Source: Pelagomonas calceolata (taxonomy: Eukaryota; Sar; Pelagophyceae; Pelagomonadales; Pelagomonadaceae). From it: a stretch of DNA of 64,000 nt. A program made the translations under genes and the position numbers. This document shows positions 10,761 through 55,017 of this stretch, piece after piece (position 1 is the first letter of the stretch; every line of letters begins with the position of its first letter). The stretch covers positions 5,270,001 to 5,334,000 of the forward strand of contig CAKKNE010000003.1 in the NCBI GenBank assembly GCA_918797485.1, written 5' to 3'. Below the pieces are notes generated by a model. The model searched no databases, was not told where the DNA came from, and saw only the letters and a program-made list of their open reading frames with translations.

Positions 10761-10816
10761 TCGATCCTCCCATCGATCACAAGTGTGCGCTAGCTGCAGC
10801 GCTTACGGATTGCAAG

Positions 10817-17510: not shown

Positions 17511-17517
17511 ACTCAAC

Positions 17518-19561: not shown

Positions 19562-19775
19562 CCACCGAGTCGTTGCAGGCTGTGTCGCACGCTCCGTCAC
19601 GGTTCAGGGCAGACGTGTGGCACTCGAAGGGCCTGTTCCGCGCTCCTCAGTGAGGCTGCTTTTTGGGGCCTTCTCCCTCCTCGGTCAGGATGCCCAACCG
19701 GAGCTGCGAAATAGCAATAAGTGCGAATGATGCAAGACCAAAGGGGAACGCACCTTTGGGAGTACGGCGGCTGAG

Positions 19776-20158: not shown

Positions 20159-20166
20159 GGCTGAGA

Positions 20167-20773
20167 TAATCTGCCGGGGAGCTACCTTAAAATACACTAA
20201 GTAGTTTTGGTTTCAAATTTTGCGGTGTTTATTACGCGTTGCGTGTTGTGTGTGAAGTACTAGTAAGTGTATATAGAACTTGAAGGGTATACTAGGATAC
20301 TAGGTCCTAGGCCCGGGGTATTTCGCCCTATTTATCGCACTCCCCCTTTTGATAAGGGTAAGCTCTTGTTTCCCTTATGGAAATACAGGGTGAAAGTTGA
20401 CTCTCATCCTTGTTGTTCGTTTCATTGAAATATGCGCCGCGGCGTTGGGCCTAGGGCATTGAGCCAGCCTGAGCGTGTGAAATCCGCGACGGCGTCCCGC
20501 CCCGGCCGACTAGGCCGCCGATTTACAGGGATCTTGACCATCTCTCAGGCTCCGGAGCCTACTACCGACGATGCCTGTCAGATAACCGGGAACGATTCAA
20601 GTCGAGGACTTCCGCGACTCCGCGCCAGCTGAGCAGACCCGCTAGGATCAGGGTAGGATCAGGGGTATCTTAGGACACATCGGGCACGGGTATCGGCGGT
20701 TGCGCTGCTGCTGCCGGTGAGCTCGGGAGGGAGCGAACTCAGCGAGCTGGGTTCGTCCTTGCCGCGTCAGCGT
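20167..20773. other. Intergenic, no supported gene
   Basis: Lower GC. A 66-codon frame begins near 20432 but has no recognisable feature. Bases 20200-20420 look like AT-rich spacer. Confidence 0.5.
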
Positions 20774-21743
20774 TCAGGCGACGACGCGCGGCGGCGGCGG
20801 CGGCGCGGTGCGCGCGCGGAGCTCGCGGAGGATGGTCGCGGCCTCGCGCTCGAGCGGGTCCGAGCCAAAGGCGGCACGGAGCGCTCCGCGAAAGTCGACC
20901 GCGGCGGCCGGCGCGGGCGTTGCGGCGGCCGCCGCCGCCGCGGTTCGCGCGCGCGCGCGCGGCTTGGCGTCGTTGAGGAAGCGGCGGCGCTGCTTGGAAT
21001 TCCAGCGGTTCTTGATGGCGTTCTCGGACCGGCCCGTGAAAGCGCGCGAGATCTCATTCCAGCGATTACCGAGGATCGCCTGGAGCGACACGAGCAGGAA
21101 GTCTTCGGCCGCCGTCCAGGGCGTCTTCACCAGATGCGGGTCCAGGTGGTTCTGCCAGCGCCTGTGCAGAAATGAAATTACACTGTGCGTCCCACTCGCT
21201 GGTTGATTTCCACGCCGGCTGGTGCTCGCGGACCTGCTTCGTGAGGCGCCCGGGCAGCAGCGCCGCGACCGCCGCCCAGTTCAAGGAGCCGGCGGGGGCG
21301 CCGCCCGCCGCCGCTGCGACCGCGCGGCGGACGACCTCGTCCTCGCCGGGCGTCCAGGGTCCTTTTACGAGGCCGAGCTTGAGGACCTTCTCCCACCGGT
21401 CCGCGCACTGGGAGGGGCTGCGGGCGCCCCCGAAGGCCCGCGCCGCCAGCGCGCCCCAGTCCCGCGCGCCCGCGCCCGCCGCGTCGGCCTCGACGACGGC
21501 GCGGAGCGTCTCGTCCTCGCGCTTGGTCCAGCGGCCCGTCTTCGCCGCGGGAACGGCCAAACCGCCGCGCGGCGGGGTGACGACGCCGGCCGCGGGGCGC
21601 GACGCGGACCCCAAGGGGTCGACGCAGGGGAGCTGCCCGCGAGGGTGCCGCGCCGCGCCGAGAGGGGAGACCCGCGCGCGCTTCGCCGGCGGGTGGTCTA
21701 TGATCAACGGGGGCGGTCTTGAGCCCGCGGGGGCCGATTTCAT
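20774..21743 (-). CDS. Three-repeat MYB (3R-MYB) transcription factor
   Basis: Exons 21743-21226 and 21161-20774 give about 301 residues. Three successive MYB repeats are visible: R1 from GRWTKREDETL to QCADRWEKVLK, R2 from KGPWTPGEDEVV to QVRERWQNHLDP (split by the intron), R3 from KTPWTAAEDFLLV to NAIKNRWNSKQRRR. Each keeps the spaced Trp residues; R2 and R3 have the classic DNA-recognition ends. The join between VRE and RWQNH is only in frame if the 64-nt intron uses a GC donor (GA|GCACCA). The intron starts with a CGTGGAAATC motif resembling the introner termini elsewhere in this window. 3R-MYBs usually bind mitosis-specific promoters and act in cell-cycle control. N-terminal 70 residues are disordered. 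Confidence 0.88.
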
Positions 21744-22171
21744 GACGCTGAAGCGCGGCAGCCCAAGGCAAACACAGCGGCCCAGTATAGGAGGGAGGCT
21801 AATTTACGAGGTTGTAATGCGATGAAAATTCGTCTACGCAGACCGCCAGACCGCCGCGGTCGTGAGGGATCTCTAGAGGACCAGAGGGCTGCGAGAGATG
21901 TCGGAGCATACCATTTCAAGCGCGAGGGCAGGCAACTGCACTGCCATCATGGTGCACCATAATTACCATAGTAAGAGTCATTCGAGCGCCATGAAGCGTG
22001 CACAGGAGTTATCTAGGTCCAAAAATCATGATCTCAAAATTTGACAAAAGCCTCTTAAGCTCTCAAAAGGAAATGCCTGGTATAAGCTCGTCGACCGTGT
22101 TGGCAATTTGCGCGAGTTACATGTAGGTCCGCCGTGCGATGTTCGGGCAGCCCTGCGCGCCGGCATCTAGC
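21744..22171. other. Divergent promoter region between MYB and GT8-like genes
   Basis: Lower-GC spacer between two divergently transcribed genes. No frame or RNA gene supported. Confidence 0.5.
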
Positions 22172-23687
22172 ATGCGCCGCCTGTGCCTGATGATCTTGGC
22201 GACCGCGCAGTGTCACAGGGTGGCGGTCCTCACGACCAGCGACTGCCGGTCGGCGTCGCCCGTCACGCACCACGAGTTCGGCACGCAGCTCGCGGCGAGC
22301 CTCGTCGTGCTCTTACGCATGCGTGAGCTGTTTCCGGGCTGGGACGCCTTTCTCGCCACGCGCCCGTCGAAGTGGAACGGCAGCCCCGGGTCGAACGCGG
22401 CGAAGGACGCCAGCTGCCGCGAGGTCTGGGACGACCTCTCGGGGCTCTACCGCGAGCGTTTCGGCGCGGAGCTCCGCCTCGTGAACTACGACCATCGCGA
22501 TTTCGCGATGTTGGACGTCGTCCGTTGTGTGGAAACCGGAGGACGAGAGAGTACCCCTCGCCGGCCTCCACGCCATCGAGCAGACGCAGTTACAAGGGCA
22601 ACGCCTCGCGCCGGGGGCGTGGGGGCTGACACTCGAACTCGGATTTGATTTCCGCACAGGTCGTCAGCCGCATCCCGGGCAAGGAGACCGACCACAGCCG
22701 CGGCCACTGGCCCTCCGAGGCATTCGTGCACCTCGTCATCGGCGCCCGCATGCTGGAGGAGTACGGCTACTCCCACACGGTCTACGTCGACGCGGACGCG
22801 TGGCCGCTCGACGACGCGCTCCGCTTCGAGGTCCCGCGCGTCGATGGCATTGGGTGCGTCGCGGCCCTGCCCGCACAGTGCCTCGAGGTGCGCCGATCCC
22901 CGCGCCGCCGCGCCGCCTCGGGGAAGGAGCCCCCTCTCCCGCCGCGCAGGTCGAGCTGCCGCGGGGAGTCTCCTCGGCGGCGAGCCGCGCGGCGAAGGAG
23001 CGCGCGGACGAGTATCGCCTCGTGACGGACCCGGCGCTCCGCGCGGGCGTCGCGGAAGCGGCCGCGCGGCTCGGCCACGGCTACCGGGTGGTCAACGGGA
23101 CCAACTCGGGCGTCGTCGTCTACAACAACGAGTTCTTGAAACACGCGCGCTGGGCCGATTGGATGCACGCACTGGTAAACGTGTCGCGACGAGGCTTCTA
23201 CGGCGACCAGACCGCGCTGACCGTGGCGCTCGGCCGCGCGGACGTGCCCGTACGGTGGCTTCACCCGCGGTTCAACGTCATGGTCACGTTACCGTACTCG
23301 TACGTGCTCAGTTCGTGCGGCGAGGACGCGCTCTACGCGGGTCGCGCGGCGCGCGCGGCGGGCGCGGCGCCCGTGTCGATCGCGCACTTTACCTGGGGCC
23401 CCAAGCCCTGGATGAAGGCGCTCGACGCGTGGCGCGCGACGCACCGTCTCAAGACCAACGCTGTCCAGAACGACGGTCCGCTCGCCAACGACTACCGCGC
23501 GTGGGTGCGCGAAACGCTCGGCGCGCGGCGCGTCGCGCGCTTCTTCTCCGACGACGCGATGGCACCGCTGCCGAACGCGACGGCGCCCGGGAGCGCGCGT
23601 CTCGACCCCCGACCGTTCCGCCGGTGCGGGGCGCTGACCGCGGGCGGCGCGGGGCCCTGCCATGGCGGCATGTCGTCCGTCCGGTGA
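22172..23687 (+). CDS. GT8-like secretory glycosyltransferase
   Basis: Exons 22172-22516, 22660-22887 and 22950-23687 join in phase 0, about 436 residues. The chosen start gives a signal-like MRRLCLMILATAQC; an ATG 33 nt upstream is also in frame. GT8 hallmarks are HTVYVDADAWPL (DxD, metal and UDP-sugar), GTNSGVVVYNNEF, GDQTALTVAL, LHPRFNVM and AHFTWGPKPWMKAL (the HxxGxxKPW motif). Retaining galactosyl-, glucuronyl- or glucosyltransferases share these; acceptor unknown. The first intron is an introner-type element with a near-perfect 8-bp duplication; the second is 62 nt. Confidence 0.83.
22517..22667 (+). mobile_element. Introner-type element serving as an intron (copy 1)
   Basis: Element 22525-22659 (TTGTGTGGAAACC ... 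GATTTCCGCACAG) flanked by GTCGTCCG (22517-22524) and GTCGTCAG (22660-22667), one mismatch. The left duplication supplies the GT donor; the element terminus supplies the CACAG acceptor. Core 22568-22603 (cacgccatcgagcagacgca...) is shared with the intron at 41865-41972, where it is in the opposite orientation to its gene. Confidence 0.88.
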
Positions 23688-23789
23688 GATGAGATGGCCC
23701 AGGGTGCAACTTACGCGGAAAGGACGCCGCGCAGTAGTTGTAAGATGCGTGGTTTAGTCAAGGTAGAACTTTCTTCTAGCACTTTCTAC

Positions 23790-24172
23790 ACAAGTTTTAA
23801 GATTCTAGAGGTCGATTAAGCCCTATTTGCTGCGCTCATAGGACAATCGGCCTCTAATCTAAAAAGTGATATAAAAACCGACACATCAAGAAAAATATAT
23901 AGAAGCCCGGTCGCCAGCCCCTACTAGTAGGCCGGTTGCCACTTACCTGAGGGGTTATTGACCCCAATCGCGGCCCGGGGTCAGTTACCCGGGTAATTAC
24001 CCGTTACTACGGGTTATTAACCCCAGGATCTTATAGAGGGGTAGGGGAGGGGGGCCATGGGCCACTGGCGCGGGCCTGGGCCGCACCGGGCCGCTCCAGG
24101 CCCCGAGGGCGGCAGGAGCCTGTCACAGGCGCTCCCCGAAGCCTGACGGCCCCAGGGAATGGCAACGCGGCG
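23790..24172. repeat. Inverted relatives of the 17.4 kb hairpin and the 19.8 kb MITE
   Basis: Bases 23790-23890 match the reverse complement of 17405-17480. Bases 23938-24090 match the reverse complement of 20010-20157, including atcttatagaggggtaggg; the ends ggttgccac and aatggcaac near 24165 look like decayed TIRs. The same two families lie in the same relative order, inverted, six kilobases away. Confidence 0.82.
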
Positions 24173-24286
24173 CGGCGCGCGTAAGTAGCGCTAGCGACCT
24201 GTAAGATACTAGGCACCGTGCCTAAAGCACAAAAAAGCCTAGGCGCTACAGCATAGATGGTCCTGTCGTGACGCGGCGTTGCGAGA

Positions 24287-25334
24287 ATGCGCGAGAACGG
24301 CTTCGACTATCCGCTGCATCCGCTGCAGTGCCTGACCTGGGCCTTGTTCCCGGTCGTCCTCCTCGACTTCTACTGGCTGCTGCTGCCGCTGCTTCCCGGC
24401 GAGGCGACGCGCTGGGCTGTCGGGACGGTGTACACGGCCGCCGCGGCGACGACCTTCTTCTGTGCTTGGATCACCGCGGCCGTCGACCCCCGCGACCCCA
24501 GCGTCGCCGCCGCGGCGCCGCCGGCAACGAATCGCCTCGCCCGGTGTTGCGAGCCGCTGGCGCTGTGGCCGCCGCCGGTCGGCGAGGACACGTGCCGCTG
24601 CTACCTCTGCCAGGTCCACGTGTTCGCGTCGTCGAAGCACTGCCGGTTCTGCGACAAGTGCGTGCTTCGCTTCGACCATCACTGCAAGTGGCTGAATACG
24701 CGCGCGTCGGCGCGGCCGGGGCGCCTTCGTATATTCGTCCCGGGGGCGCGCCGGGGGAGAGTGGGGGCGCCCAGACGACGCCCGGGCGATCAGGTGCGTC
24801 GGTGCCAAGAACTACGGCTACTTCCTCGCGGTGATCGCGTCGACGTGCGTCTTCACGACGATGCAGCTCGCGCTCTCCGTCTACGTGGTCGTCGAGCTGG
24901 CGGTGCCCGACCGCCGGCGCTCGGCCGTCGCCGCCCGCGCGCGCCGGCACGCCGTCGGCCGCGAGCGTGGCGTCGACGCGGTCCTGGCGCTCGTCTGCGC
25001 GTACGCCGCGCTGCTCGTCCCGCTCGTCGTATTGATCGGCCAGCTCGCCTTGTTTCACGCCATGCTCGTCCGGAGGGGCCTCACGACCTACGAGTACATC
25101 CTGGGCGAGCAGCGGGTCGACGAGCGCCCGTCGGCGCCCCCCAGGACCATTTGTGAGCCGTGCGCCCCGCCGATCCCGCCCGCCACGCCGGAGGATTCTC
25201 CGGACCTCGTCGTCGTCGAGCGAGGACGCGGCGACGGCTCGCCGCGCCGCGCCGGCCCGGCGGGCGGCAGTCCTGCGCCGACCAGCGGAGACATTGGCGC
25301 CGCCGGCGGTGTGTCGTCTACTAGTACTATTTAA
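24287..25334 (+). CDS. DHHC-type palmitoyltransferase
   Basis: Exons 24287-24699 and 24794-25334, about 317 residues. Two N-terminal membrane segments ([22 protein letters not shown] and [19 protein letters not shown]), then the Cys-rich domain ([10 protein letters not shown]...[21 protein letters not shown]) with the catalytic DHHC, then [17 protein letters not shown] leading to two more membrane segments and a disordered tail. The join that restores [16 protein letters not shown] needs a GC donor (AATAC|GCGCGC); GCGTCGG occurs at both ends of the intron. It S-acylates Cys residues of proteins at Golgi or plasma membrane. Confidence 0.92.
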
Positions 25335-25863
25335 ATAAATAAATAACTCGGGGAGGCGGCGTATGAGGGCCGGGGGCGGGGCGGCGTCGTGGTAGTTAGG
25401 CGGCCTAGCTCTGAGCAAAGCAAATAAATAAATAAAAATAGAAACGAAGGACACGCAATGGTCCACAGCACAAGGCCTGGCGCTTTTCGCCCGCGCCCCC
25501 GCGTGACATATATAATGCAAATACAGATCCGCAGCCAGATCCACCGCCGCCGTGGTGGGTATTTCGCACAGGGCAAGAGAAGAGGCCGGGCCGATAGCAT
25601 GTACTTCGTCCTGGAGCCGGAGGACGCGGCGCCGAGACCTCGGGCTAGAAAAGAATACCTGCTGTTGTTTGAAAATAAAATAATAAATACTAAAAAAATT
25701 AACTTGAACTTGAAGCCTGAGGAAGATTCGGACCTAAAAAAGGAACCCGCTCTCTGCTCGGTCAGGATGCCCATGAGTAGTGGCGTTATTATTACTACAA
25801 TTATACCAGGCTACTAGTACTAGAGGCAAGCGCTCGGCGCTATCACTGTCACAATGTCCGGGC
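25335..25863. other. Convergent 3' flank between DHHC and ATG7 genes
   Basis: AT-rich, with several AATAAATAAA runs (25335, 25422-25436, 25675) that may serve as poly(A) signals for both genes. A 119-codon frame at 25458 shows no family features and is not called. Confidence 0.5.
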
Positions 25864-27762
25864 TTAGAACTCGTCCGCCTCGGCCCACGCCGCCCCGTCG
25901 ACGGCTCCCTTGAGGTCCGCCAGCCCCGAGAGTCGCTCGAGGAGGCCGGGGTCCGCGCCCACGTCGCGGACGAGCGCGACGCCCCGGTCGCGGTACGCCG
26001 CGACGACGGCCGGCGCGCAGGCCGCGCACCGGTCGAAGGCCGGTGTGGTTGGCAGCACCGTCGCGTAGTGAGTGAGAAAGCCCCGGATCGAGTGTGGCAC
26101 GAGGCCGAGGGGCCGGTTCCCCGGGAGGGGCGCGCCCGGCGGCGTCGCCGGGTCTGCGGGCGCCGCGCCCTCGCGGGGGTGGTGCAGGAGCGCGACGAGC
26201 AGCTCGACGGCGAGCGCCGCCGCCGCCGGCGCGAGGCCCGGGCGGGATACGGTGCACTGCTGGTCGAGCGTACGGTCGCGCGTCGAATTCGTCGGAGCCG
26301 CGACGTCGCCGCAGAAGTAGCAGCCGAGGCCGTTGCCGCCGTGGCCGTGACGCTGCACCACGAACGTGTCGAGGCCCAGCGCGACGTTCACGAGAAGCGT
26401 GCCGCGCGCCGCGGCGACCACGGTCGGGAGCCACCGGCTTTCGCGCGTGTCGGTGAGCAGGAACACGCAATCCGCGTCCGCGACGAGCGCGTCGAGCGCG
26501 TGCACCTCGGCGTCGGCGGCGTCGCCCGCCGGCGTGCCGGCGGCCGGGAGCGCGTGGCCCGGCATGGCGATCGTTAGCTTTTTTCCGACGAACGCCGGCG
26601 GCGCGGCGGCCGAGCCCGGCGCGATGCGCCGGAGCGCCGCCGCGGCCGCCGCGGCCTTGGGGGCCTGCGCTTTCGCGTCGTCGACCGTGTAGAGCCACTG
26701 GCGCGCCGGGTTCGAGTACGCCACGGTACCGCCGTCGACGAGCGTCACGCGCGTCACGCCCCACGCGACGAGGCTGCGCGCGACCGCGCAGCCCAGCGTG
26801 CCCGCCCCCAGGAGCAGCACGCGCGTCGCCGCGAGCTTTTCGACGTCGAGGCCCGGCAACAGTCGCCAGCGCATGAGCTCGAGGTTGAGCGCGGCCGCGG
26901 CGGTCGCCAGCGCGCCGGGGTCGGCCAGCGGCGCGAGGTCCGCCGACCGCGGGGCCATGCGGCCGCTCGCGTTGGCCTCCCAGCCGACGACGGCGACGTC
27001 GGCCGCCGCGCCGCCGGCGACGCGCGCCTCGACGACGCACCCGCCGCGGCCGCGGAGCAGCGCGATGCGGAACGCGCGCCGCTCCGGGAACCGCCGCGCG
27101 AGGAGCCACAGGAGGTTCCGCGCGGGCCAGCCCGGCGCGCCGGCCGCCGCGGGGTCGAGCACGCAGAACACGTCGCCGCCGGCCGCCTCGCGCAGCGGCG
27201 CGCGCGACGCGCCGGTCCACGCGAACGCGAGCGGTGCGCCCGGTTCGGCCGCCGCCGCGAGCAGCGCGCGCGCGGCGGCCGCGCCGAGCGCGTCGTCGAG
27301 CGGCGCCGGCGCGCCGCGCGTCGCGGCCGCCGCCGGTCGCAGCACGAGCGCGGGGAACGCGAACCAGTAGACGTACGCGTGCCGCTTCAGGTCAGCGAAC
27401 GCGACGACCTCGAAGGGCGCGAGGCGCGCCGGGTCCGCGAGCGCCGCGCCGTCGTCGACCGCGGCGGCGAGCGCGTCGCCGGCGCGCCGGAGCAGCGCAG
27501 CCTTATCGACGCGCCGGAACGCCTCGAGCGTGTTGACGACCGTCACGCGGCCCGCCAAGGCCGTCGCGCCGGGCGGCGCCGCGCCGTCGCGCAGCGACGC
27601 CCCGTCCAGCACGAGACGCGCGCCGCCGCCGGCCCAGTAAAAGCCCCGCGCGGGCCGCGGCGCGTCGTCCAGGCGCCAGTCGCGCAGCTTGCGCTCGGCC
27701 ACGGCCTGCCAGAACGCGACCTTCGGCGCCGACGAGAACGGGACGAAGCGCAGCGCGTCCAT
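25864..27762 (-). CDS. ATG7: Autophagy E1-like activating enzyme ATG7
   Basis: A single exon of 632 residues, close to the usual ATG7 length. The N-terminal domain starts LRFVPFSSAPKVAFWQ, typical of the family. The adenylation domain has the ATP-binding LLLGAGTLGCAVARSL and VTLVDGGTVAYSNPARQ. The catalytic Cys lies in RTLDQQCTVSRPG, and YFCGD plus CAAC are candidate structural Cys pairs. ATG7 activates ATG8 and ATG12 for transfer to ATG3 and ATG10. It has no visible intron, unlike most neighbours. Confidence 0.95.
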   Translation of the reverse strand: MDALRFVPFSSAPKVAFWQAVAERKLRDWRLDDAPRPARGFYWAGGGARLVLDGASLRDGAAPPGATALAGRVTVVNTLEAFRRVDKAALLRRAGDALAAAVDDGAALADPARLAPFEVVAFADLKRHAYVYWFAFPALVLRPAAAATRGAPAPLDDALGAAAARALLAAAAEPGAPLAFAWTGASRAPLREAAGGDVFCVLDPAAAGAPGWPARNLLWLLARRFPERRAFRIALLRGRGGCVVEARVAGGAAADVAVVGWEANASGRMAPRSADLAPLADPGALATAAAALNLELMRWRLLPGLDVEKLAATRVLLLGAGTLGCAVARSLVAWGVTRVTLVDGGTVAYSNPARQWLYTVDDAKAQAPKAAAAAAALRRIAPGSAAAPPAFVGKKLTIAMPGHALPAAGTPAGDAADAEVHALDALVADADCVFLLTDTRESRWLPTVVAAARGTLLVNVALGLDTFVVQRHGHGGNGLGCYFCGDVAAPTNSTRDRTLDQQCTVSRPGLAPAAAALAVELLVALLHHPREGAAPADPATPPGAPLPGNRPLGLVPHSIRGFLTHYATVLPTTPAFDRCAACAPAVVAAYRDRGVALVRDVGADPGLLERLSGLADLKGAVDGAAWAEADEF

Positions 27763-27809
27763 TCGTAGGCGTCCCTCGCTCTACTTCAGCATCCTGAAAA
27801 TGTTGATGA

Positions 27810-28158
27810 CTACTGCGGTATGCAGCAAGTACCGCAGTACCGCCTGGCACCTCTTAACCTCTTAGAGAGAGAAACCTACTAGCCCTTCCTACCCGATATG
27901 TATCTCCCACTCTCTCTAAATTTGAGTCTATACAGCGAGTGTCTATTGCACTACGTTGTAACAACAATTTACTATAAAACACTCTCGTAGTTAGGTTGGC
28001 CCAGTGGCAGCCCTCGGCTGGTGAGCTACTAGTAGGACCCTTGCACTACGTTGTAACAACAATTTACTATAAAACACTCTCGTAGTTAGGTTGGCCCAGC
28101 CCTCGGCTGGTGAGCTAGGACCCTGCTACCTTACATAACGCTGCGACATACTCTTGCT
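27810..28158. repeat. Dispersed repeat, copy 2 (inverted), with a 92-bp internal duplication
   Basis: Reverse-complement match to 10536-10755. A segment with gcactacgttgtaacaaca and aaaacactctcgtagttag occurs twice in tandem (27949-28040 and 28041-28120). Flanking gcggtatgcagcaagtaccg is a palindromic GGTACC-type run. Confidence 0.85.
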
Positions 28159-28524
28159 ACCTCTACGCCGAGACTACGGTATGCCTACGGTACTATGCGT
28201 ATAGATACGCGATATATCGTGAAAACGCGATGCGAATTTGAAGGCATCGCGCCGCGATAAATAATACATGCTAGTATATAATTGCAATTGGAAATATGTT
28301 GGTATAATACTAGAAGTATACTGACCGCGCGTCCCTCTACGCCACAATAGTCTGGCGAACATGCTCGCCCTTTTTTTGGCCCTTCAAATCCAACCTGGCG
28401 AAGTTCCTAATAGGCGAAGTTCCGACTGTGTAGTAGGACACACACCATTCGAGTCTTCGCGAAAACCGGTGCAGTGTACCCGTGATGGGCCGGCATTTGA
28501 CATGAAAGAGTGCAGGTAGCGCGT

Positions 28525-30479: not shown

Positions 30480-30685
30480 TTTGGCGCGGGGGCGCGTGGT
30501 CCGGGGGCCCTGGGGTTGGCGCCCGTTGTGGCAACGGCCTTTTCCCCACTTATAAATCTCCCAAATTTTATCTTAGCTTCACTATCCTAGTTTCATTTAT
30601 CCTAGTTAAATACCCGGATAGAATAGGGCTAGTGAATACCGGTACGGTACCTACGGTACCTACGGTACCGTAGGTATCTGCAGTA
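30480..30685. repeat. Dispersed repeat module 1 (inverted partner at 36.8 kb) and GGTACC palindromes
   Basis: 30480-30632 matches the reverse complement of 36782-36924 (gcgcgggggcgcgtggtcc, cccacttataaatctccca). 30636-30680 is a run of overlapping palindromes (ggtacctacggtacc). This lies just upstream of the sulfotransferase start and contains TATAAAT. Confidence 0.82.
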
Positions 30686-30741
30686 ACGGCGGAGTCAAGG
30701 CGGAGGACTTGTGGCCGGCAGGCCAGCGGGCGCTTTGCAAG

Positions 30742-31614
30742 ATGCAGGATAAGTTTCGGTTCTTCCACGTTCCCAAAGCAGGGTCATCTTTTGCACCGCT
30801 GGTTTGGGCCATGGCGTGCGAAGCTGGAAACAAATCGTTGGACCTGCTGCTCAAGCCGGGAGGACTCACTAGGTTTCCCGCCGGAGTGCTCGGGCCGCGT
30901 TGTAATGTGCGCTACCTCGGGGGCGGCTCGCGTGTCGAGCCCGACTACCATCACGCAGCCCTTCGTGGCGACGAAGAGGTCGCCGCGGCCATTGGTGTCT
31001 TCCGCGAGCCCGCGTCGCGTATCGTGAGCGCATATCATTATGACTACCATGTGCACCTCCCTACATGGGACCAAGCGCCCATAAATCGCACGGCGTTGCT
31101 GGCGCTCCCCGAGGCGAACAGTACGCGTCTCCTTGCGTTCGCGCGCCTCCCGATCGTGAGTAACACTGCGACCAAGATGCTTATTGGCTCACCTCCGGGC
31201 TCGATACGGCGCATCGTGGCCGCAGATATCACTCTAGCCCTGCGACGCGTCGCCGCTTTGCGCTTTGTCGCTATCACGGAATGTCTTCACGAGGCAGCCG
31301 ACGTCCTCCGCGTGGCCAAACATGACTGGGGCTTGGACAATGTCTCGTTGCCACCACTCCGTTCATTCCGTACAAACTCTCTTCTCGGTGCCAATGACCG
31401 GCAACTCGATATCTTGGCTGTTACCGCTGATCTGCTACGGCGGTGCAGCGTCCATGACATGGACGAATATGACGCAGATGTTGAGATTTACAATGTCGCA
31501 GCCTGTCGTTTCCACAGGGCTCGCCACATTGCTCACGTTGAGCCCCAGTCGCCGTTGTGCGCTGAGTCGGCGCGCACATTCTCGCCGCAGTTCTGTCGTG
31601 CGAGACATATCTAA
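30742..31614 (+). CDS. Sulfotransferase-family protein
   Basis: A single exon of 290 residues. FRFFHVPKAGSSF matches the 5'-phosphosulfate loop of PAPS-dependent sulfotransferases, and GVFREPASRIVSAYHYDY matches the 3'-phosphate-binding region (Sulfotransfer_2-like, carbohydrate-type). No signal peptide is visible from this ATG; an upstream exon could supply one. Codon use is clearly less GC-rich than that of the neighbouring housekeeping genes. Repeats flank both sides. Likely substrate: a glycan or small molecule (inference). Confidence 0.75.
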   Translation: MQDKFRFFHVPKAGSSFAPLVWAMACEAGNKSLDLLLKPGGLTRFPAGVLGPRCNVRYLGGGSRVEPDYHHAALRGDEEVAAAIGVFREPASRIVSAYHYDYHVHLPTWDQAPINRTALLALPEANSTRLLAFARLPIVSNTATKMLIGSPPGSIRRIVAADITLALRRVAALRFVAITECLHEAADVLRVAKHDWGLDNVSLPPLRSFRTNSLLGANDRQLDILAVTADLLRRCSVHDMDEYDADVEIYNVAACRFHRARHIAHVEPQSPLCAESARTFSPQFCRARHI

Positions 31615-31728
31615 GATGGATAAATCGTGTGCACACGAGGCGCAGCGTATTCTAAAGGCTGTGGAGAGCAATTAAAGTACAAGGATTGCGGTTAATGAAG
31701 CGCTGCAGATCCCAGTTAAGCCAGGTAT

Positions 31729-31824
31729 GGGGCTAGTATGATTTAAAGTAACTCGGGTTAGGGGCTAGTATGATTTAAAGTAACCCCGGGTATGGGCCTA
31801 GTATGATGTAAAGTAACCCCCTAG
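31729..31824. repeat. Three-copy ~32-bp minisatellite
   Basis: Three tandem units of ggggctagtatgatttaaag followed by taaccccgggta, at 31729, 31761 and 31793, the last with small changes. It follows the sulfotransferase gene. Confidence 0.85.
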
Positions 31825-31953
31825 TAGGGGGTAGGGTTACTTACTGAAGTAGCTCTAGAGCTACTCCAGTCATCGCACTCCCCTCCATTTTAAAATGGCA
31901 ACCTGCTATTGTTTTACACTTACTACACGCTTCTCGACCAGTGATTTGGCCGC

Positions 31954-32504
31954 TCATGAGAGGTCAAACTGGCTCGGCGTGTAGTTGATGGCCGCGAGTC
32001 GCCGCACGTCGGCCTTCGAGACTCCCTTGGGCTCGAATCGCCGGAACAAGATATCCATGAGCTCAGGTCCGACGAACGCGCCAACCGCCTCGCCCTCGGC
32101 GCGTCTCACGTCCGCCCGGAGCGCCTCCGTGCGGTCGTTCGCCGTAAACGTTTCGAGCAGCCGCCGCCTGCGTGTGGAATCAAGCTCCAGCAGGCTAGCC
32201 TAGACCAAGACGCGGTCTTTATGTCTTGGAGTGACCTTTCAAAGAGGGGCGGGCGGTGGATTATTGCGAAGCCCTTCTGCCTCGAGACTCGTTTTTAGGA
32301 CACTGGACATCACTTCTTGAGATGGCGCAGCAATTCTCGCTTTTTTCGCCGCCTGTCGCGATCGGCCTTTTGTGCGTCGGTCTGCTTGAGCCGGCCCGCA
32401 ACCTTGGCTAGCGCCCCAAGGCCGAGGCCAGGTTTCTTCGGCTCGGGCGCCTCGCTAGGCTCGACGGCGAGCGCAGCGCCGGGCGGCGGCTCCTCGTCGT
32501 TCAT
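31954..32504 (-). CDS. Small charged helical protein, unknown
   Basis: Exons 32504-32314 and 32194-31954 join (AAGAA|GTGATG donor, GGCTAG acceptor) to give 143 residues. The first half is Pro/Glu-rich then basic (DRDRRRKKRELLRHLK); the second is a continuous helix-rich segment (NLLELDSTRRRRLLETF, PELMDILFRRFEPKG, KADVRRLAAINYTPSQF). The reading frame is held only with the join, which supports it. No family recognised. Confidence 0.5.
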
Positions 32505-32616
32505 GTCATCTGCAATCGTAATACAACCGTTTTTGTATACGTCCGGCTGTTGCGGCTCCCGTGACGATACGCTGTGCCGTAGGTACCGTGGTACCTACCT
32601 GCTATGATATGGCCAC

Positions 32617-32790
32617 GTATCCTATGTAAGGCTGACTCAGGTTTGTCAGCTATGTTTGGTATCTTGGCAGCAATATCGTCACATCTAGTGGCTCGCTGCA
32701 AGATACTTTCTTATACTTGCTCGTGTCCCATAGCGCTCCGATTGTGAGAGCGCAGGACAAAGGAGCAAGAATTTTTGGAGTGGGTTGTGT
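32617..32790. repeat. Dispersed repeat module 2 (inverted partner at 36.95-37.11 kb)
   Basis: Matches the reverse complement of 36945-37118, including ttggtatcttggcagcaat and gagagcgcaggacaaagga. It precedes the short frame at 32817. Confidence 0.85.
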
Positions 32791-32816
32791 TGCTATTAGG
32801 TTGTTGAACTTCTCTG

Positions 32817-33092
32817 ATGGCTGAGCAGCCTCTCGCAGGACCTGCGCCGGCGCCGGCGCTGGTCTTTACAGCGAGAGAACCAAGCGAGCTCCTTAAACAA
32901 CGGTATGGTGAAAACGAGGAATTCGTGGAAGTCTCGTATATACCCCCGTCATTAGCAGGAGCTTTTGCTGGAGGCTATAAAGATACTGAGGGTAAGATCG
33001 TGTTTCCGCGGTCGATGATAGCAGCAATGGCGCTGCTCGAGTCTAATCATTTCGGAGAACCAGTGGCTCACGCTCAACAGGTTAGTGGATGA
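32817..33092 (+). CDS. Short frame beside a dispersed repeat, possible mobile-element remnant
   Basis: A 91-residue frame from an ATG (MAEQPLAGPAPAPALVF) with sequence that reads like a folded protein (ELLKQRYGENEEFVEVSYIPP) and then stops. Starts about 30 bases after repeat module 2. It may be the truncated N-terminus of an element protein. Unknown family. Confidence 0.35.
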   Translation: MAEQPLAGPAPAPALVFTAREPSELLKQRYGENEEFVEVSYIPPSLAGAFAGGYKDTEGKIVFPRSMIAAMALLESNHFGEPVAHAQQVSG

Positions 33093-33595
33093 TGAGACTG
33101 GCTGTCTACACCCGAATGGAGTGTTACTTCTTCTGAGTCTTCCTCCGCTAAGAAACCTGAACATCCAGAGGGGCTCAAACGACCTTGTATTATTTATTCC
33201 AACTTCAAGTTTGTATTATCGACTTGAATCTCACGGTTGAGGGGGTTCCCATGCTCTCACGTCTCAGCGAGAGTCCTTCCTGTTGGCATCTCCGTGTCAC
33301 ATTGACACCCGAGAGCCTGAGACCTAGCTACCATGACCGTGACCGTCGCGGTGACCATCATGATAGCTCAGGCTGCATTGTGCACTGACTGGCATACTGC
33401 ACCCACTGCCACCCAGCTCATCAGATCCAACTTGAAGCACAAACCAAAGCTGATATCGCTGCCAGTGAAGGTGACGGGACCAGTGGACCTTATAAGGTCC
33501 AGCTCGCGAGTAAGTCACGGTCACCGAACCACCTACTAAGACGGCCATACACTACTATATGTCACTACTAGCCCCGGACCTAGGAAGCGAAACAG
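33093..33595. other. Intergenic, no supported gene
   Basis: Lower-GC spacer at the 3' side of the LRR-receiver gene. Contains several gtgaccgtgaccg-like near-palindromes near 33325-33355 but no frame of note. Confidence 0.5.
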
Positions 33596-36500
33596 TCAAA
33601 CAGAGTCCACCCCCCCACTGGCAAGTGGAGATGAGGGCGCTGGAGCTTCGGCGGCGCCGGCGGCGCGCGACCGCTTGGCGGCGGGCGCGGCGAAGACCCC
33701 TGCGCACTCGAGCATGAGCGCGTCCTCGAGCGCGTCGGGCGGCGGGAGCCGCGGCTCGAAGCGGGCCGGCCGCGCGGACCCCGCGGCGCCGTCGCTGGAC
33801 GCGCCGCCGGCGTCGGACGCCTCGCCCGACGCGTCGAGCGCCGCGTCGAGGCGCTCGGCCGCCTCGGCGGCGACGCGCGTCGACATTTCGAGGAGCGACG
33901 AGACGCGGAGCGGCTTGGCCTCGAAGGCGTCGGCGCCGCTGCGGAGCGCGCCGTCGCGCCGCTGCGGCTCGGCCGAGACGGCGCAGACGCGCTGCGGCCG
34001 GACGCCGGCGGGGGCATCGCGCTCCCACGCGCGGAGTTCCCGCGTGCTTCGCCAGCCGTCCATGACGGGCATCTCGAGGTCCATGATGACGAGGTCGTAG
34101 GGCGTGCGGCGCATGCACACGAGGGCCTCGCGGCCGTCCCGCGCGGCGTCGACGAGGAACCCCGCGTTCTCGAAGCTCCGCCTCAAGAGGCGCCGCGTCG
34201 TCTCGGAGTCGTCGACGACCAGCGTCCGCCGCGTGAGCCAGTCGCCGCGCTCCTGCATGCCGTAGTACCGCAGCTGGCGGAGGCGCACGAGGACGTCGCG
34301 GAGCGCGTCGAAGCGCGCCGCCGGGTCGGCGCACGCCGCGCGCGCGGCGAGGTCCGCGCGCAGCCGCGCGGCGAGCCGCGGGAACGCGTCGACGCGCGGC
34401 GTCGCCCCGTCGAGCGCGCGTCGCTCGCCGGCGCCCGGCGGCCGCGGCAGCGCCGCCGCCCGAGGCGGCGCGTCGACGCCCTCGTCGAAGTCGCGCGGCG
34501 GCGCGGCGCAGAAGAAGAAGCGGTAGAGCTCCTTGAGCTCGTCGAGGTCGAACGGCAGCCGCGCGACGTTGGCCAGGAGCTGGAGCTGGCGCCGCCGGCG
34601 CGCGTCGTCGCTCGGCTCGCCGGCGCCGCCGCGCGCGGCCGCCGCCGGCGCCGCGACGAGCGCGCCGAGGTTCGGCAGGAGCGCGGCGTTGCTCAGCTCG
34701 GCGACGCCGCCGCCGCCGACGCCGAGCGCGGCGAGGCCGCGGCCCAGCGCGACGCCGCCGAGCTCGGCGAGGCGGCCGTTCGCCGCGACGCCCGCGCAGA
34801 CGTGGCTCGCGCCGACGCCGCTCGCCGCGATCGTGCCGCGGAGGTCGACGCGCGCGAGCGCCGGCGCCTGCGCGAGCGCGCACGCGACGGCGCGCGCCGC
34901 CGCCGTGCCGACGGGCGAGCCGCGGATCGACAGCGACTCGAGCGTCGCGTGCGTCGCGACGGCGGCCATGAGGCCCTGCACGACGGCGCCGTCGAGCCCG
35001 GCGTCGTCGACCTGCAGCGACCGCAGCGCCGGCGCGGCGCCGCAGCGCATCGCGTGCGCGAAGTACCGCGCGGCGTGCGCGGCGCCGCCGCCGCCGAGCC
35101 GGAGCTCCAAAAGCCGCGGCGCCGCGCGGACCGCCACCGCCGGCGGCAGCGCGACGCGATGCAGCGCGAGCGGTTCCACCGGCGTCGCCGCGGCCGCGAC
35201 GGCCGGCGCTCGGTCGCCGGCGGCGCGCGCGTCGCCGTCGCCGACCCAGACCGCCGAGAGCTCGCGGCTGCCGACGCCGACGGCGCCGACGCGCGCCGCG
35301 CGCGCGGCCGCGGACGACGCCGCGTCGCGCGGCGCGGCGCGCGCGAGTCCGACGGCGTCGGCGACGCGGTGCGCCTCGTCCTCGTCCGACGCGTCGCCGC
35401 CGGCGCCGCCGCCGGCGACGGCGCAGTGGAGCGCCTCGACGGACGCGGCGGCGACGTCGGCGACGAGGCGCGCGACGCACGCGTCCGAGAGGCGGTTGCC
35501 GTTGAGGCGCAGCACGCGGAGCGTCCGGTTGCCGCGCGCCTCCGAGAGGACCGCGCCGAGCGCGCCCGCGCCGCTCGCGCCGACGCGGCACGCGTCGAGC
35601 GACAGGACCTCGAGGGCGCCGTTCGTCCGCAGGGCCGCCGCGAGCGCCACGGCGCCGCGCGACCCGACGCGGCCGTTCTCGGAGAGGTCGAGCTCGCGGA
35701 GGCCCGCCGGCGCCGGGGGCGCCGGCGGCTCGCCCGCCTCCGCCTTCCGCTTCCGCCGCGACGGCGAGCGGCGACGCGGCGCGAGCTGCGTCGCGAGCGT
35801 CGCCGCGAGCGCGGCGGCGCCGACGGCCCCCACGTCGTTCGCGCGGAGCGCCAAGACCTCGAGGCCGCGGCACGCGGTCGCGAGCGCCGCGCACCCGGCG
35901 TCGCCGACGGCGCACCGCGACAGGTCGAGCGCGCGGAGCCGCACGTCGTCCGGCGCCCGGGTCGGCGCGGCGCGGAGCGCGGCGGCGATCGCGCTCGCGC
36001 CCAGGTCGCCGACGCGCGGCGACCCGGCCAGCGACACGCGCACGCTCCGCCGCTCCGGCGGCGCCGGGCGTCCGGCGCGCCGCGCCTCGGCGCGCGCGAC
36101 GCGACGCGCGTCGCCGCGCGTCTGCGCCGCGAAGAGCCACGCGACGGCCGCGGCCTCGCCGGAGTGCACGCCCGCCAGGACGTACGCCGCGTCGTCCGCG
36201 TCGACCGCGGGGTCGTCGCTCCGGCGGAGCTCGAGGGGCGTCACCGGCGACCCGGCGACGGCCGACGCCTGGGCTCCGCGGACGGGCAGCTCGATGACCA
36301 CCGCGTCGTCGCCGCGGTTGATCCACGTCGCGACGCACCGCGCGGGCGACATGGCCACCGGCGGCGCCGCGGACCAGCGGTGGAAGTGCGGCATGCTCGT
36401 GGCCTCGCCGCGCCGCAGGTCGTCGATCGACCGCACGAGGAACCCCGGCCGCACGCACCCGACGCGGCTCAGGTAGCTCTCGCCCACGGCGACGGGCGCG

Positions 36501-36640
36501 GTCGCGGCGTCGCTGGCGCCCGGCGCCTCGTCGCGGCGCGGCCGGGCGAGCGCGAGCTCGACGAACGCCGCGACGCGCAGCTGGCCGTCGAGGCGGTAGA
36601 GGACGCCGCCGGCGCCCGAGGTGCCGGGCGTCGTCGCCAT
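33596..36640 (-). CDS. LRR protein with C-terminal response-regulator receiver domain
   Basis: One exon of 1014 residues. Residues about 1-190 are a mixed N-terminal region. Then come ribonuclease-inhibitor-type leucine-rich repeats, about 200-600 (RLRALDLSRCAVGDAGCAAL, GLRELDLSENGRVGSRGA, TLRVLRLNGNRLSD). A helical linker with DELKELYRFFFCAAPP follows. Residues about 790-920 are a receiver (REC) domain: RTLVVDDSETTRRLL (acidic pair), DLVIMDLEMPVMDGW (phospho-acceptor Asp), CAVSAEPQ (Ser/Thr switch) and FEAKPLRV (conserved Lys). All catalytic residues of a phosphorelay receiver are present. No histidine kinase or DNA-binding output domain is visible in the chain, so the LRR part may be the output or the partner platform (inference). 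Confidence 0.88.
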   Translation of the reverse strand: MATTPGTSGAGGVLYRLDGQLRVAAFVELALARPRRDEAPGASDAATAPVAVGESYLSRVGCVRPGFLVRSIDDLRRGEATSMPHFHRWSAAPPVAMSPARCVATWINRGDDAVVIELPVRGAQASAVAGSPVTPLELRRSDDPAVDADDAAYVLAGVHSGEAAAVAWLFAAQTRGDARRVARAEARRAGRPAPPERRSVRVSLAGSPRVGDLGASAIAAALRAAPTRAPDDVRLRALDLSRCAVGDAGCAALATACRGLEVLALRANDVGAVGAAALAATLATQLAPRRRSPSRRKRKAEAGEPPAPPAPAGLRELDLSENGRVGSRGAVALAAALRTNGALEVLSLDACRVGASGAGALGAVLSEARGNRTLRVLRLNGNRLSDACVARLVADVAAASVEALHCAVAGGGAGGDASDEDEAHRVADAVGLARAAPRDAASSAAARAARVGAVGVGSRELSAVWVGDGDARAAGDRAPAVAAAATPVEPLALHRVALPPAVAVRAAPRLLELRLGGGGAAHAARYFAHAMRCGAAPALRSLQVDDAGLDGAVVQGLMAAVATHATLESLSIRGSPVGTAAARAVACALAQAPALARVDLRGTIAASGVGASHVCAGVAANGRLAELGGVALGRGLAALGVGGGGVAELSNAALLPNLGALVAAPAAAARGGAGEPSDDARRRRQLQLLANVARLPFDLDELKELYRFFFCAAPPRDFDEGVDAPPRAAALPRPPGAGERRALDGATPRVDAFPRLAARLRADLAARAACADPAARFDALRDVLVRLRQLRYYGMQERGDWLTRRTLVVDDSETTRRLLRRSFENAGFLVDAARDGREALVCMRRTPYDLVIMDLEMPVMDGWRSTRELRAWERDAPAGVRPQRVCAVSAEPQRRDGALRSGADAFEAKPLRVSSLLEMSTRVAAEAAERLDAALDASGEASDAGGASSDGAAGSARPARFEPRLPPPDALEDALMLECAGVFAAPAAKRSRAAGAAEAPAPSSPLASGGVDSV

Positions 36641-36774
36641 ATAGCAAGCTTGGTGCCGCCAAGTTGGAGCAGGCTCGATCCTAGCCAGGCGCGACGAGCC
36701 CCTAAAACCAGGGTCTCGCGCGCAGCTAACAAGAGTCCCTCCCTATCCTGGTTTGCAATGTACATTCACTAGGC

Positions 36775-37118
36775 CTACTCTGTCCGGGTATTTAACCAAG
36801 ATAAGTGAGACTAGGGTAGTGAAGCTAAGATAAAATTTTGGGAGATTTATAAGTGGAAAAGAGGCCGTTGCCACAACGGGCGCCAACCCCAGGGACCCCG
36901 GACCACGCGCCCCCGCGCCAAAACAACCAAGGGAGGGTGGGAGGGCCAAAATTCTTGCTCCTTTGTCCTGCGCTCTCACAATCGGAGCGCTGTTGGACAC
37001 GAGCAAGTATAAGAAAGTATCTTGCAGCGAGCCACTAGATGTGACGATATTGCTGCCAAGATACCAAAACATAGCTGACAGACCTGAGTCAGCCTTACAT
37101 AGGTTCGGGACAGCCCTT
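36775..37118. repeat. Dispersed repeat modules 1 and 2, side by side
   Basis: 36782-36924 is the inverted match of 30480-30632; 36945-37118 is the inverted match of 32617-32790. At 30-33 kb the two modules are 2 kb apart and in the other order. A frame continues to 37334 on the plus strand (ALTIGALLDTSKYKKVSCSE) and may be an element-derived fragment. Confidence 0.82.
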
Positions 37119-41144: not shown

Positions 41145-42476
41145 TCACTCGCCGCCGCCCCCCGTCAGACGCCGGACCACGGCGAGCGCGTCGAGGACGG
41201 CCGCGCGGAGCTCCGGCAGGCCGCGCCCCTGGCGCACCGAGACGAGGAGCGCCCCGTCGGGCGGGGGCGGCGGCGCGTCGGCGGCGTCGTAGAGGTCGGC
41301 CTTGGACACGACGTCGATCCAGGGCCGCCGCGGGAAGCGCGCGCGGAGCGCGTCGCGGACCGCGAGCTGGGCGTCGGGCGACGACGTCCGCTCGCCGGCG
41401 TGGCCCGAGAGGTCGCACACGAAGACGACCGCGCTGGGAAGGTGGTCCATCGTCGCCATCGTCAGGTCCTCCATGGCGTTCCGGGCCGCGGCGTCGCGGT
41501 CCAGGAGGCCCGGCGTGTCCATGACCTGTCCCGCGAGCGCGCCGCCGTCGTAGACGTGCCCGAGCGACACGCCGCGCGTCGTGAACGCGTAGTTGCCGAC
41601 CTCGGGCTCGCCGGTCGACAGCGCGCGGACGAGCGTCGACTTGCCGACGTTCGGCGCGCCCACGAGGACGAGCGTCGGGGCGCGCAGCGACACGGTGGGG
41701 ATGCGTCGGAGGGCGCGCTGGTGGCCGCGGAGCTCCTCGAGCGCGCGCCGGCCCCGGCCGGCGAGCTCGCGCTCGATCGCGGCCAGGACCGCGTCGGGCG
41801 CGGTCGCGGCGTCGCGGGCCGTCGGCGCGGCCTTGGCCGCGGCGGCGCCGTCCCGCGCCGCCGCCTGCGTGAAACTCAGCACGTGAGTTAGGTTCTTCCA
41901 CGCCATCGAGCAGACGCAATCACAGGGACAACGGCGCGTCGATGGCGGGGCGCCGTGAAATTTGATTACCACACAGGCCGCCGCGAGGACGGCGAGGCGG
42001 ACGGCGGCGATGTCCGCGAGCACGTCGGCCGGCGCGCGCGCGCCGGTGCGCGTCCGCTGCGCCGCCGTCAGCGTCGCCGTCGCGTGCTCGAACGGGTGCA
42101 GCGACCGCCGCAGCGCCTCGGGCGCGTGCGCGTCGAGGACCTGGCGAAGCGGCACCGAAACCGCCTGGCCCATCGCGTCCGCGCGCGCGGCGGCCTGCTT
42201 CGCGGCGCGGCGCCGCGCGTTCGGCTCGGCGGCGTCGCGCGGCACCTTGGCCGCGCGGCTCGCCGCGCGCCGCAGCAGCTCGTCGGCCTTGGGCGCGTGG
42301 GGCAGCTGCCGCAGCTTGCCCGTGGCGCGGGGCGCGCGCGCCCGCGGCCGCGCAGGCGGCTCGGCCGCCACCACGGCGCCGCGGCGCAGCGCCGGCCGGC
42401 TGCCGTGTCGCGTCAGCTGTTGCAGCGCTCGCGCGGTGCGCAGCACAGACAGGGTGAGGCCGAGGCGCATGATCAT
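41145..42476 (-). CDS. NOG1/Obg-like GTPase with basic N-terminal extension
   Basis: Exons 42476-41973 and 41864-41145, phase 0, 407 residues. G motifs: G1 LVGAPNVGKSTLV, G2 region EVGNYAFTTRGVSLGH, G3 DTPGLLDRD, G4 VSKADL (Ser in place of the usual Asn), G5-like LLVSVRQG. The YAFTT and MEDLTMATMDHLPSAVVFVCDLS stretches match NOG1-type GTPases used in large ribosomal subunit assembly. At about 400 residues it lacks the long C-terminal tail of nucleolar NOG1. The N-terminus is rich in Arg, Leu and Ala and could be a plastid or mitochondrial transit peptide (inference), which would make it an organelle ribosome-assembly factor. The intron is an introner element. Confidence 0.8.
   Translation of the reverse strand: MIMRLGLTLSVLRTARALQQLTRHGSRPALRRGAVVAAEPPARPRARAPRATGKLRQLPHAPKADELLRRAASRAAKVPRDAAEPNARRRAAKQAAARADAMGQAVSVPLRQVLDAHAPEALRRSLHPFEHATATLTAAQRTRTGARAPADVLADIAAVRLAVLAAACVVIKFHGAPPSTRRCPCDCVCSMAWKNLTHVLSFTQAAARDGAAAAKAAPTARDAATAPDAVLAAIERELAGRGRRALEELRGHQRALRRIPTVSLRAPTLVLVGAPNVGKSTLVRALSTGEPEVGNYAFTTRGVSLGHVYDGGALAGQVMDTPGLLDRDAAARNAMEDLTMATMDHLPSAVVFVCDLSGHAGERTSSPDAQLAVRDALRARFPRRPWIDVVSKADLYDAADAPPPPPDGALLVSVRQGRGLPELRAAVLDALAVVRRLTGGGGE
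41857..41984 (-). mobile_element. Introner-type element serving as an intron (copy 2, reversed)
   Basis: Read on the minus strand: GCGGCGGC, then CTGTGTGGTAATCAAATTTC ... GAGTTTCACGCAG (41976-41865), then GCGGCGGC. The 8-bp target duplication is perfect, and the termini CTGTGTGGTAATC and CTGCGTGAAACTC are inverted repeats. The intron is 41972-41865 (108 nt). Core 41898-41933 equals the core of copy 1 at about 31 of 36 bases but lies antisense to this gene. Confidence 0.9.
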
Positions 42477-53889: not shown

Positions 53890-55017
53890 CTAGCTGGCCG
53901 TGTGCATGAGCTTTTTGAATTCCTCGTAAGAAATCGTCTTGGAATGGTCGAGGTCGCCCTCGCCGATGAGCTCCTCGGCCTTCTTCTTCGAACCCGTGAG
54001 CGCGACGAGGTTTTCGACGGATATGTCGCCCGAGTCGTCGACGTCGAGGTGCTCGAAGACCTTGCGGACGTTTTCCTCGCGGAGGTAGAGCTGGCGCTGC
54101 ATCGTGGCGGCGATGAACTCGCGGTAGTCGATCTGCTGGTCGCCCGACACGTCGGCGGCCTCCATGAGCGACTGCGCCGCGTCGCGGTCGCCCGCCTCGA
54201 GGCCGCCGGAGTCGGCGCGGTGCGCGACGTGCGGCTCGAGCGCGCGGCGCAACTCGGCGGTCGAGATCGTGCCCGAGCCGTCGGTGTCGATCTCCCGGAA
54301 GACGTCGCGTAGCTGCGTGAGCTCGGGCCCGCTCAATTCCTGCCTGCGCGGACATGAACAGTTTACGGTCTCTTGCAATGGTCCGCACGGTCTGCTTCGT
54401 AATTGAACGCCACTGGTGACGTAAGAAGATGAAGAGGGCGCCGTGGTCCCTTTGCCGAGAGGGAGAATTTTGAAGGTCGATTTCCACACCGACGCTCGCG
54501 CCAGCACGTTGAGCGGAAATTACACGTTTACGGTTCCCCGATCGCTCGTCGTCTTGATCAGATGTCGTCGACGAGATGCCCACCGCCCTCCGTCCGTGCG
54601 ACGCTCGCGTCGTCCAAACGACCGCGAGACGGCCGAGGCGGAGCGTCGAGTGTACCTCGGGCGCGGTGCCCGCGTCGCTGGTTGACTTTTCCGCGCAGGC
54701 GCCGACGGGTCCGCGCGCGGCGAGCAGCGGCGCACGACGCCGTAATGTCCCTCGCCGAGCACCTTCTTGTCCACGACGAAATCGTCCTTGAGGCGCGACG
54801 ACGGGGCGCGGGCCGCGCGGCTTTGGTTTTTTTTTCGCGGCGTGTCCTTGCGCGCCTTCTCCTTTTCGCGCGTCACGCGCGCGGCCGCCGCGGCCTTGGC
54901 GTCCTCTTGGATGCGGACGCGTCGCGCGGGCGGTCGCGCCTGCGCCGGGCTCCGGGCGGCTCCTCGGTCGCCCGCCGAGAAAACCCCGGTGGCGCCTTTG
55001 AGCCACTCGAGCACCAT
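53890..55017 (-). pseudogene. CDPK-like gene lacking the kinase core
   Basis: The 5' part (from 55017) codes a basic head and RLKDDFVVDKKVLGEGHYGVVRRC, the glycine-rich loop of a calcium-dependent kinase. The 3' exon, 54343-53890, codes four EF-hand-like units: REIDTDGSGTISTAEL, EAADVSGDQQIDYREF, LDVDDSGDISVENL and GEGDLDHSKTISYEEF, as in the CDPK regulatory domain. Only about 380 bases separate them, far less than the 700+ needed for the rest of a kinase domain, and no VAIK, HRD or DFG is seen. Either the core was deleted, or two partial genes abut, or the assembly collapsed. The EF-hand part alone could still make a calcium sensor (an ATG exists at 54507). Confidence 0.6.

Follow-up and report, generated by a model that had tools for sequence, protein, structure and literature searches.

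How a short element with the ends of a transposon came to interrupt the coding region of a NOG1-like GTPase gene, and which bases would be removed with it from the transcript, are the questions raised by a locus of the pelagophyte alga Pelagomonas calceolata. The locus lies in a window of 64,000 nucleotides (the whole stretch of DNA that was analysed, G000:C3:5270001-5334000). The host gene runs on the minus strand from 42470 to 41145 and encodes 401 residues once the element and one copy of its target are removed, the joined protein having matches to NOG1_N, MMR_HSR1 and NOG1.

The element in the NOG1-like gene

The features of the gene and its element, in gene order, and a second family copy in the window are as follows.

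41985..42470, minus strand: exon 1, N-terminal part of the NOG1-like GTPase, from frame and domain matches
41977..41984, minus strand: target-site duplication, upstream copy in gene sense, GCGGCGGC; its GC is the predicted co-opted 5' splice site under the family rule
41865..41976, plus strand: introner (MITE) copy, 112 nt, core orientation plus, antisense to the host gene
41962..41976, plus strand: one terminal inverted repeat, TTGATTACCACACAG; in gene sense it begins CTGTGTGGTAATC and holds alternative 5' sites at 41972 and 41969
41865..41879, plus strand: the other terminal inverted repeat; in gene sense it supplies the predicted 3' splice site ...CACGCAG
41857..41864, minus strand: target-site duplication, downstream copy in gene sense, GCGGCGGC; exon 2 begins here
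41145..41864, minus strand: exon 2, with the end of NOG1_N, the G domain (MMR_HSR1), NOG1 and the stop codon, from frame and domain matches
41865..41984, minus strand: predicted intron, 120 nt, GC-AG, whose splicing would restore ..VLAAARDG.. exactly
41865-41972, minus strand: alternative intron, 108 nt, adding four residues
41865-41969, minus strand: alternative intron, 105 nt, adding five residues
22525..22659, plus strand: second family copy, 135 nt, in a plus-strand coding region, with flanks GTCGTCCG and GTCGTCAG (one mismatch)

The element at 41865-41976 matches its family query at 84.6% over 117 columns, and a sister copy, at 95%, lies at L002 (G000:C4:1340605). Its ends, CTGCGTGAAACTCAG and TTGATTACCACACAG, are imperfect 15-bp inverted repeats with 4 and 1 mismatches, respectively, to the terminal inverted repeats of the family, CTGTGTGGAAATCAA and TTGATTTCCACACAG. 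The 8-bp flanks are identical and abut the 112-nt element directly, reading GCCGCCGC on the plus strand and GCGGCGGC on the minus strand; the initial annotation, which had reported a perfect duplication exactly flanking the element, was correct in this respect (41857-41864 equals 41977-41984). By itself this duplication is weak evidence because exact 8-bp matches at a spacing of 120 recur both in the host gene (2 of 1,192 positions, one of them the duplication itself) and in the whole window (272 of 63,872 positions). In combination with the family ends, the duplication can be regarded as secure. Two further statements of the same annotation agree with these data: the core, on the plus strand, runs antisense to a host gene on the minus strand, and it resembles another copy of the family, with 37 nt at 89% to 22525-22659, which is probably the "copy 1" of the earlier comparison. 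The insertion as a whole, element and one target copy, is 120 nt long, in frame and free of stops.

Elsewhere in the window, two more degenerate stretches (54344-54491 and 21162-21217) have family-like ends, and neither shows an intact 8-bp duplication. Long inverted repeats of 70-123 nt and 87-98% complementarity (20033-24056, 30480-37068 and 10478-28159) are possibly other mobile elements.

In the account proposed here, a MITE (a non-autonomous element with inverted ends of about 15 bp and an 8-bp target duplication) would have entered the coding sequence of the NOG1-like GTPase gene and turned into a spliceosomal intron at once. Both ends of the element read CAG at their outward finish and would thus offer a 3' splice site in either orientation, while the 5' splice site would consist of the two bases with which the duplicated target begins, mostly GT but GC in the NOG1-like copy. 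Splicing would then excise one target copy together with the element (120 nt, minus strand, 41984 to 41865), so that the mRNA would be the same as before the insertion. Taken whole, from the insertion of a MITE through the CAG of the element and the target-derived GC donor to the exact removal of 120 nt, we consider this account quite probable.

The family across the genome and the source of its splice sites

The genome searched comprises 32,445,274 bases in 8 contigs. The end motif of the family, ATTTGATTTCCACACAG, occurs at 2,179 places within 2 mismatches, compared with 0 for a reversed control, and a family query built from related copies gave at least 43 matches (40 of 580 candidates scored). 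Across 118 loci and the window, 86 copies have an 8-bp duplication with at most one mismatch, 59 of them exact, and additional copies with two or more flank mismatches exist among those whose upstream flank starts with GT or GC. These loci are a non-random sample, 38 being best matches to two queries and 80 lying around exact end motifs. The listed duplication-bearing copies range in length from 52 to 203 nt.

Coding strand and frame were called from codon usage separately to the left and right of each copy, with target copies left out of the scores and with a codon model whose training set comprised the window and some of these loci. Enough flank was available for 83 of the 86 duplication copies. 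For 71 of these 83, the calls on the two sides coincide in strand and frame once the element and a single target copy are removed (chance 1/6, p = 6e-43). Together with the abundance of family ends, this gives the pattern expected of introners, in which many similar copies interrupt single open frames of unrelated genes, each at its own position. Sixty-two copies that also pass the score threshold form the coding set, and in every one of them the sense target end is GT (49 copies) or GC (13 copies) and nothing else. GT or GC at the antisense target end is found in 17 of the 62, as against 62 of 62 in sense (Fisher 1e-19); all 21 copies outside the coding set have one or the other on at least one strand. 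A transposase preference for GT/GC targets may be part of this rule, yet the bias toward the sense strand means that splicing is still needed even if such a preference exists. Most likely, as judged from the sequences of the copies, the 5' splice site of the family comes from the duplicated target and the CAG from the element. From the evidence of frame, domain and GT/GC we infer that the copies are spliced from RNA; they would have been made by transposition, and the RNA of the NOG1-like copy would be spliced at its GC. That copy alone does not discriminate, because GC at a target end is common enough, occurring at 12 of the 62 antisense ends.

A quite different placement of the splice sites had been suggested by the initial annotation, in which both lie inside the termini of the element and the intron is 108 nt long and in frame. 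The 108-nt form is indeed in frame, but so are two others, of 120 and 105 nt, the first of which is favoured, and the location of both sites within the termini is probably wrong, since with both sites in the element the target copy would bear no signal. Donors internal to the element would lie at CTGT/GTGG, giving the 108-nt intron and four added residues (VLAAACAAARDG), or at CTGTGTG/GTAATC, giving the 105-nt intron and five; the latter corresponds to the sequence GGTAATC in a terminus of this copy, which would offer a further in-frame donor, GTAA. An architecture of 4 + 8 bp is, moreover, known in an Aureococcus sp. genome (legend to Fig. 2F of PMC9860276). Such donors leave the GT or GC at the sense target end of all coding copies unexplained, however, and the relatives of the host protein have no extra residues at the site, although these relatives may be empty alleles. 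Element-internal donors therefore appear unlikely for the NOG1-like copy, and a donor derived from the target is the preferred reading.

The claim that one family is present in genes in both orientations is confirmed on a larger scale. The family query is matched by 47 of the 62 coding copies, of which 32 are oriented in sense and 15 in antisense, as judged from the best local match, which is short in some cases. These orientations, like the element, its ends, the duplication and the GT/GC rule in the copies examined, can be read from the DNA directly.

An 8-bp duplication fits a MITE of the hAT superfamily. The only hAT-dimer match found in the genome, however, has other ends (CAGGGCAGC..) and the duplication TTGCTCGC. 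This complete-looking hAT element, at L120:2050-5700 (G000:C4), with ends CAGGGCAGCAGAAGG and an open frame of 721 residues, is apparently not the partner of the introners. A search for KDZ (Zisupton-like) transposases found no match in the genome and was silent in control genomes as well. Elements with both exact ends and a total length of 230-260 nt, the range searched, occur at one place, on both strands, and a query of IMG/VR with a 20-base piece of the family end returned 0 stretches.

Filled and empty forms among environmental proteins

Comparison of alleles or strains for presence and absence of the element had been proposed as a check, and both forms are found among environmental proteins, at the level of protein sequence. 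A protein search gave P0001, a sequence of 441 residues that represents a cluster of 94 members and carries the element, and P0002 and P0003, of 401 residues and 97% identity, which are without it and read ..LAAARDG.. as the model of exact removal predicts. The longest contig is 8,123 nt for P0002 and 1,644 nt for P0003. At the protein level, these sequences would represent filled (P0001) and empty (P0002, P0003) alleles, although P0003 could alternatively be a spliced transcript. In an alignment of the more distant P0005-P0009 (43-69% identity), no insert and no extra residues are found at the site. A second host gene, TruD-like (L004), offers a similar pair: P0127 has the element at the RCC100 site and P0126 is without it there, running instead, some 40 residues beyond that site, into the sequence of a family end.

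Transcript evidence for Pelagomonas was not recognised among the protein matches listed (for the NOG1-like search, the best 120 of 234), so these matches indicate insertion polymorphism and not splicing; the environmental proteins are taken as calls on DNA, which report the presence or absence of an insertion. Introner-like ends also appear elsewhere in the same genes among relatives of two host genes (P0126, P0133, P0138, P0139, P0142 and P0146), clearly in P0126 and P0139 and as readings by eye in P0133, P0138, P0142 and P0146. Their varied positions suggest much insertion polymorphism in natural populations.

These sequences also bear on another proposal, that retention of the intron would give a longer protein. 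The premise stands, as the frame is open and without a stop; use of the product as a deliberate longer protein is unsupported. If the element were retained and translated, a protein of 441 residues would result, and the environmental open reading frame P0001 does run through it, but an open reading frame called on DNA does not show translation. In 26 of the 62 coding copies the length of the insertion is divisible by three, and the frame is open throughout in 5 of the 62, including the NOG1-like copy; because so few are readable through, the open frame here looks incidental. The domain matches point the same way. The joined protein matches NOG1_N with 25.9 bits over residues 55-220, above the cut-off of 22.9, whereas the read-through protein P0001 matches over residues 55-136 only and, at 21.3 bits, drops below it. 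Furthermore, the window and P0001 differ at two residues, both among the 40 inserted ones and neither among the other 401 (Fisher 0.008). Retention with translation is on this evidence very improbable, and removal of the element by splicing remains the preferred reading.

The GTCGAGAG clade and the spread of introners

Since the Micromonas papers it has been debated whether introners spread as DNA or through reverse splicing. The 8-mer GTCGAGAG is found repeatedly in copies whose flanks do not match, standing immediately 5' of the end motif at 13 exact places genome-wide; the mirror order, end motif then GTCGAGAG (a pattern one base longer), occurs at 1. The duplication is absent from all 13 copies (3 to 7 mismatches of 8), and since the same exact 8-mer recurs 13 times opposite such mismatches, a decayed duplication is ruled out. 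A similar 8-mer, GTCGAGTG, has three copies, two with perfect duplications and one with a single mismatch. Fifteen GTCGAGAG copies were examined, the 13 exact ones together with L134 and L136, which have one or more changes in the end; L135 (flanks equal to those of L134), L137 (right end not found), and L129-L133 and L138 (other 8-mers) were omitted.

In all 15 copies, a single frame continues from exon to exon, and no bases are duplicated. When the joined pieces of ten of them were scanned against Pfam, eight matched a family and two did not. The match spans the junction for pirin (only just), OLA1-like MMR_HSR1, PARP, TPMT, AOX and M32 peptidase; that of an ion channel also spans it but is below its cut-off, and in a GH31 piece the boundary between two domains falls close to the junction. 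A single clade (support 0.951), all members of which lie outside the window, comprises twelve of the 15 cores.

Members of the GTCGAGAG clade: L023, L028, L036, L037, L083, L121, L122, L123, L125, L127, L128, L134

Within this clade the core always runs with the gene, and the median core distance is 0.05, compared with 0.16 in 25 duplication-type copies of the same core type. The other three GTCGAGAG copies (L124, L126 and L136) fall outside it, and AOX and M32, among the best junction-spanning domain matches, belong to two of these three. Three paralogous loci with GTCAAGAG, likewise duplication-free, are 1.2% from the clade. The host gene of L002 resembles these three paralogues by its flanks and by ABC-ATPase motifs; L002 lies three bases from their site and is followed by GC.

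The exon borders of the clade differ from those of the duplication class. The downstream exon begins with GT or GC in 7 of 12 clade copies (6 GT, 1 GC) as against 61 of 62 in the duplication class, and the resulting exceptions, 5 of 12 compared with 1 of 62 (p = 2.7e-4), led to rejection of the view that these are older transposon introns that have been overwritten. The intron follows a G in 9 of 12 clade copies and in 22 of 62 of the duplication class (p = 0.02). A shifted or longer duplication was also rejected, the best 8-base identity over offsets being 0.46 for the 12 clade copies versus 0.96 for up to 40 duplication-type copies.

The channel gene at L036 illustrates the difference at a single site. 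Uninterrupted environmental relatives (P0130-P0134, P0138 and P0139) read FIAEYITRF, and P0140, at 57% identity, reads FIAEYAARF; P0135 and P0136 (a 44-member cluster) start with the element end ISTQ, followed directly by EYITR or EYVTR. Whether filled or empty, these forms have a glutamate codon (GAA or GAG) at the start of the exon. Such a target is unable to supply GT or GC, and the intron must therefore have brought its own 5' site.

These patterns suggest copying of whole introns, perhaps by reverse splicing, in a family that arose by DNA transposition. The 8-mer GTCGAGAG would be a former target copy captured as the clade's own 5' end, and the introns of the clade would insert in sense, without duplication, between exon bases such as G/G. 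The simplest route would be reverse splicing of the excised intron followed by its return to DNA. Against this stand the 7 of 12 downstream exons that do begin with GT or GC and the three GTCGAGAG copies outside the clade, two of which supply the AOX and M32 matches, and one-ended transposition or template switching at the DNA level may also have produced the GTCGAGAG class. The proposal of a family with two routes, spreading mostly by DNA transposition and in one young clade as complete introns with a captured GTCGAGAG 5' end, seems to us evenly balanced. That a subgroup of its own family seems to spread in this manner raises the thought that the NOG1-like copy, too, arrived as a whole intron by an RNA route; it has a perfect 8-bp duplication, however, where the subgroup copies have none, and it is antisense, whereas their cores are always in sense, making this origin scarcely credible and leaving DNA transposition as the preferred one. 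Two copies, L046 and L047, share another 5' 8-mer, GTGTCTGC (2 exact places), without a duplication and are possibly a second whole-intron pair, or a chance match. In the literature covered (titles, beginnings of abstracts and some passages, mostly open-access and without preprints), no introner clade with a lost duplication was found.

Huff et al. 2016 are said to have described the introners of Aureococcus anophagefferens as short non-autonomous DNA elements with inverted ends and a target duplication, in which one splice site reportedly comes from the element and the other from the duplicated target, with exact removal. The Pelagomonas family is like these introners in its inverted ends, target duplication, target-derived site and pelagophyte host; compared by description, it is unlike them in using GC as the target-derived 5' site in 13 of 62 coding copies and in having one duplication-free subgroup. 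Passages of PMC9860276 describe, in an environmental genome of Aureococcus sp., introners with an 8-bp duplication and a 4 + 8 bp geometry, and already allow for insertion in the opposite orientation. The 108-nt reading of the NOG1-like copy, with 4 bp of the element kept, would have this geometry, whereas the Pelagomonas copies examined obey, unlike those described there, the rule of a target-derived 5' site in 62 of 62 cases. For Pelagomonas calceolata RCC100, parts of PMC9481584 report a nuclear genome of 32.4 Mb in six contigs, in addition to plastid and mitochondrion, 0.45 introns per gene, and a peak of intron length at about 210 bp that is likened to the introner elements of Aureococcus; they describe neither sequence, duplication and orientation nor the use of GC. 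The duplication-bearing copies listed here differ from that peak, at 52-203 nt. A model of reverse splicing has been proposed for the introner elements of Micromonas (in passages of PMC3879977), and the GTCGAGAG subgroup resembles it in being in sense only, without duplication and made up of complete introns. Unlike the Micromonas elements as described there, the GTCGAGAG unit combines DNA-transposon ends with an 8-mer resembling a former target copy, which argues that the subgroup descends from a transposon.

The NOG1-like copy thus likely belongs to the DNA-transposon type of introner, in a pelagophyte host, and its probable 5' site is a GC donor borrowed from the target. It offers a clear natural case of an intron made by a transposon, with filled and empty alleles in environmental sequences and in an alga that can be cultured and has few introns. 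The GTCGAGAG clade, to which the analysis of the family led beyond the window, is the less expected result and the wider gain. Close relatives within one genome appear to use either route of spread, and with empty alleles at one clade site the question becomes testable. If the proposal is true, a transposon would have been caught in transition to a self-spreading spliceosomal intron.
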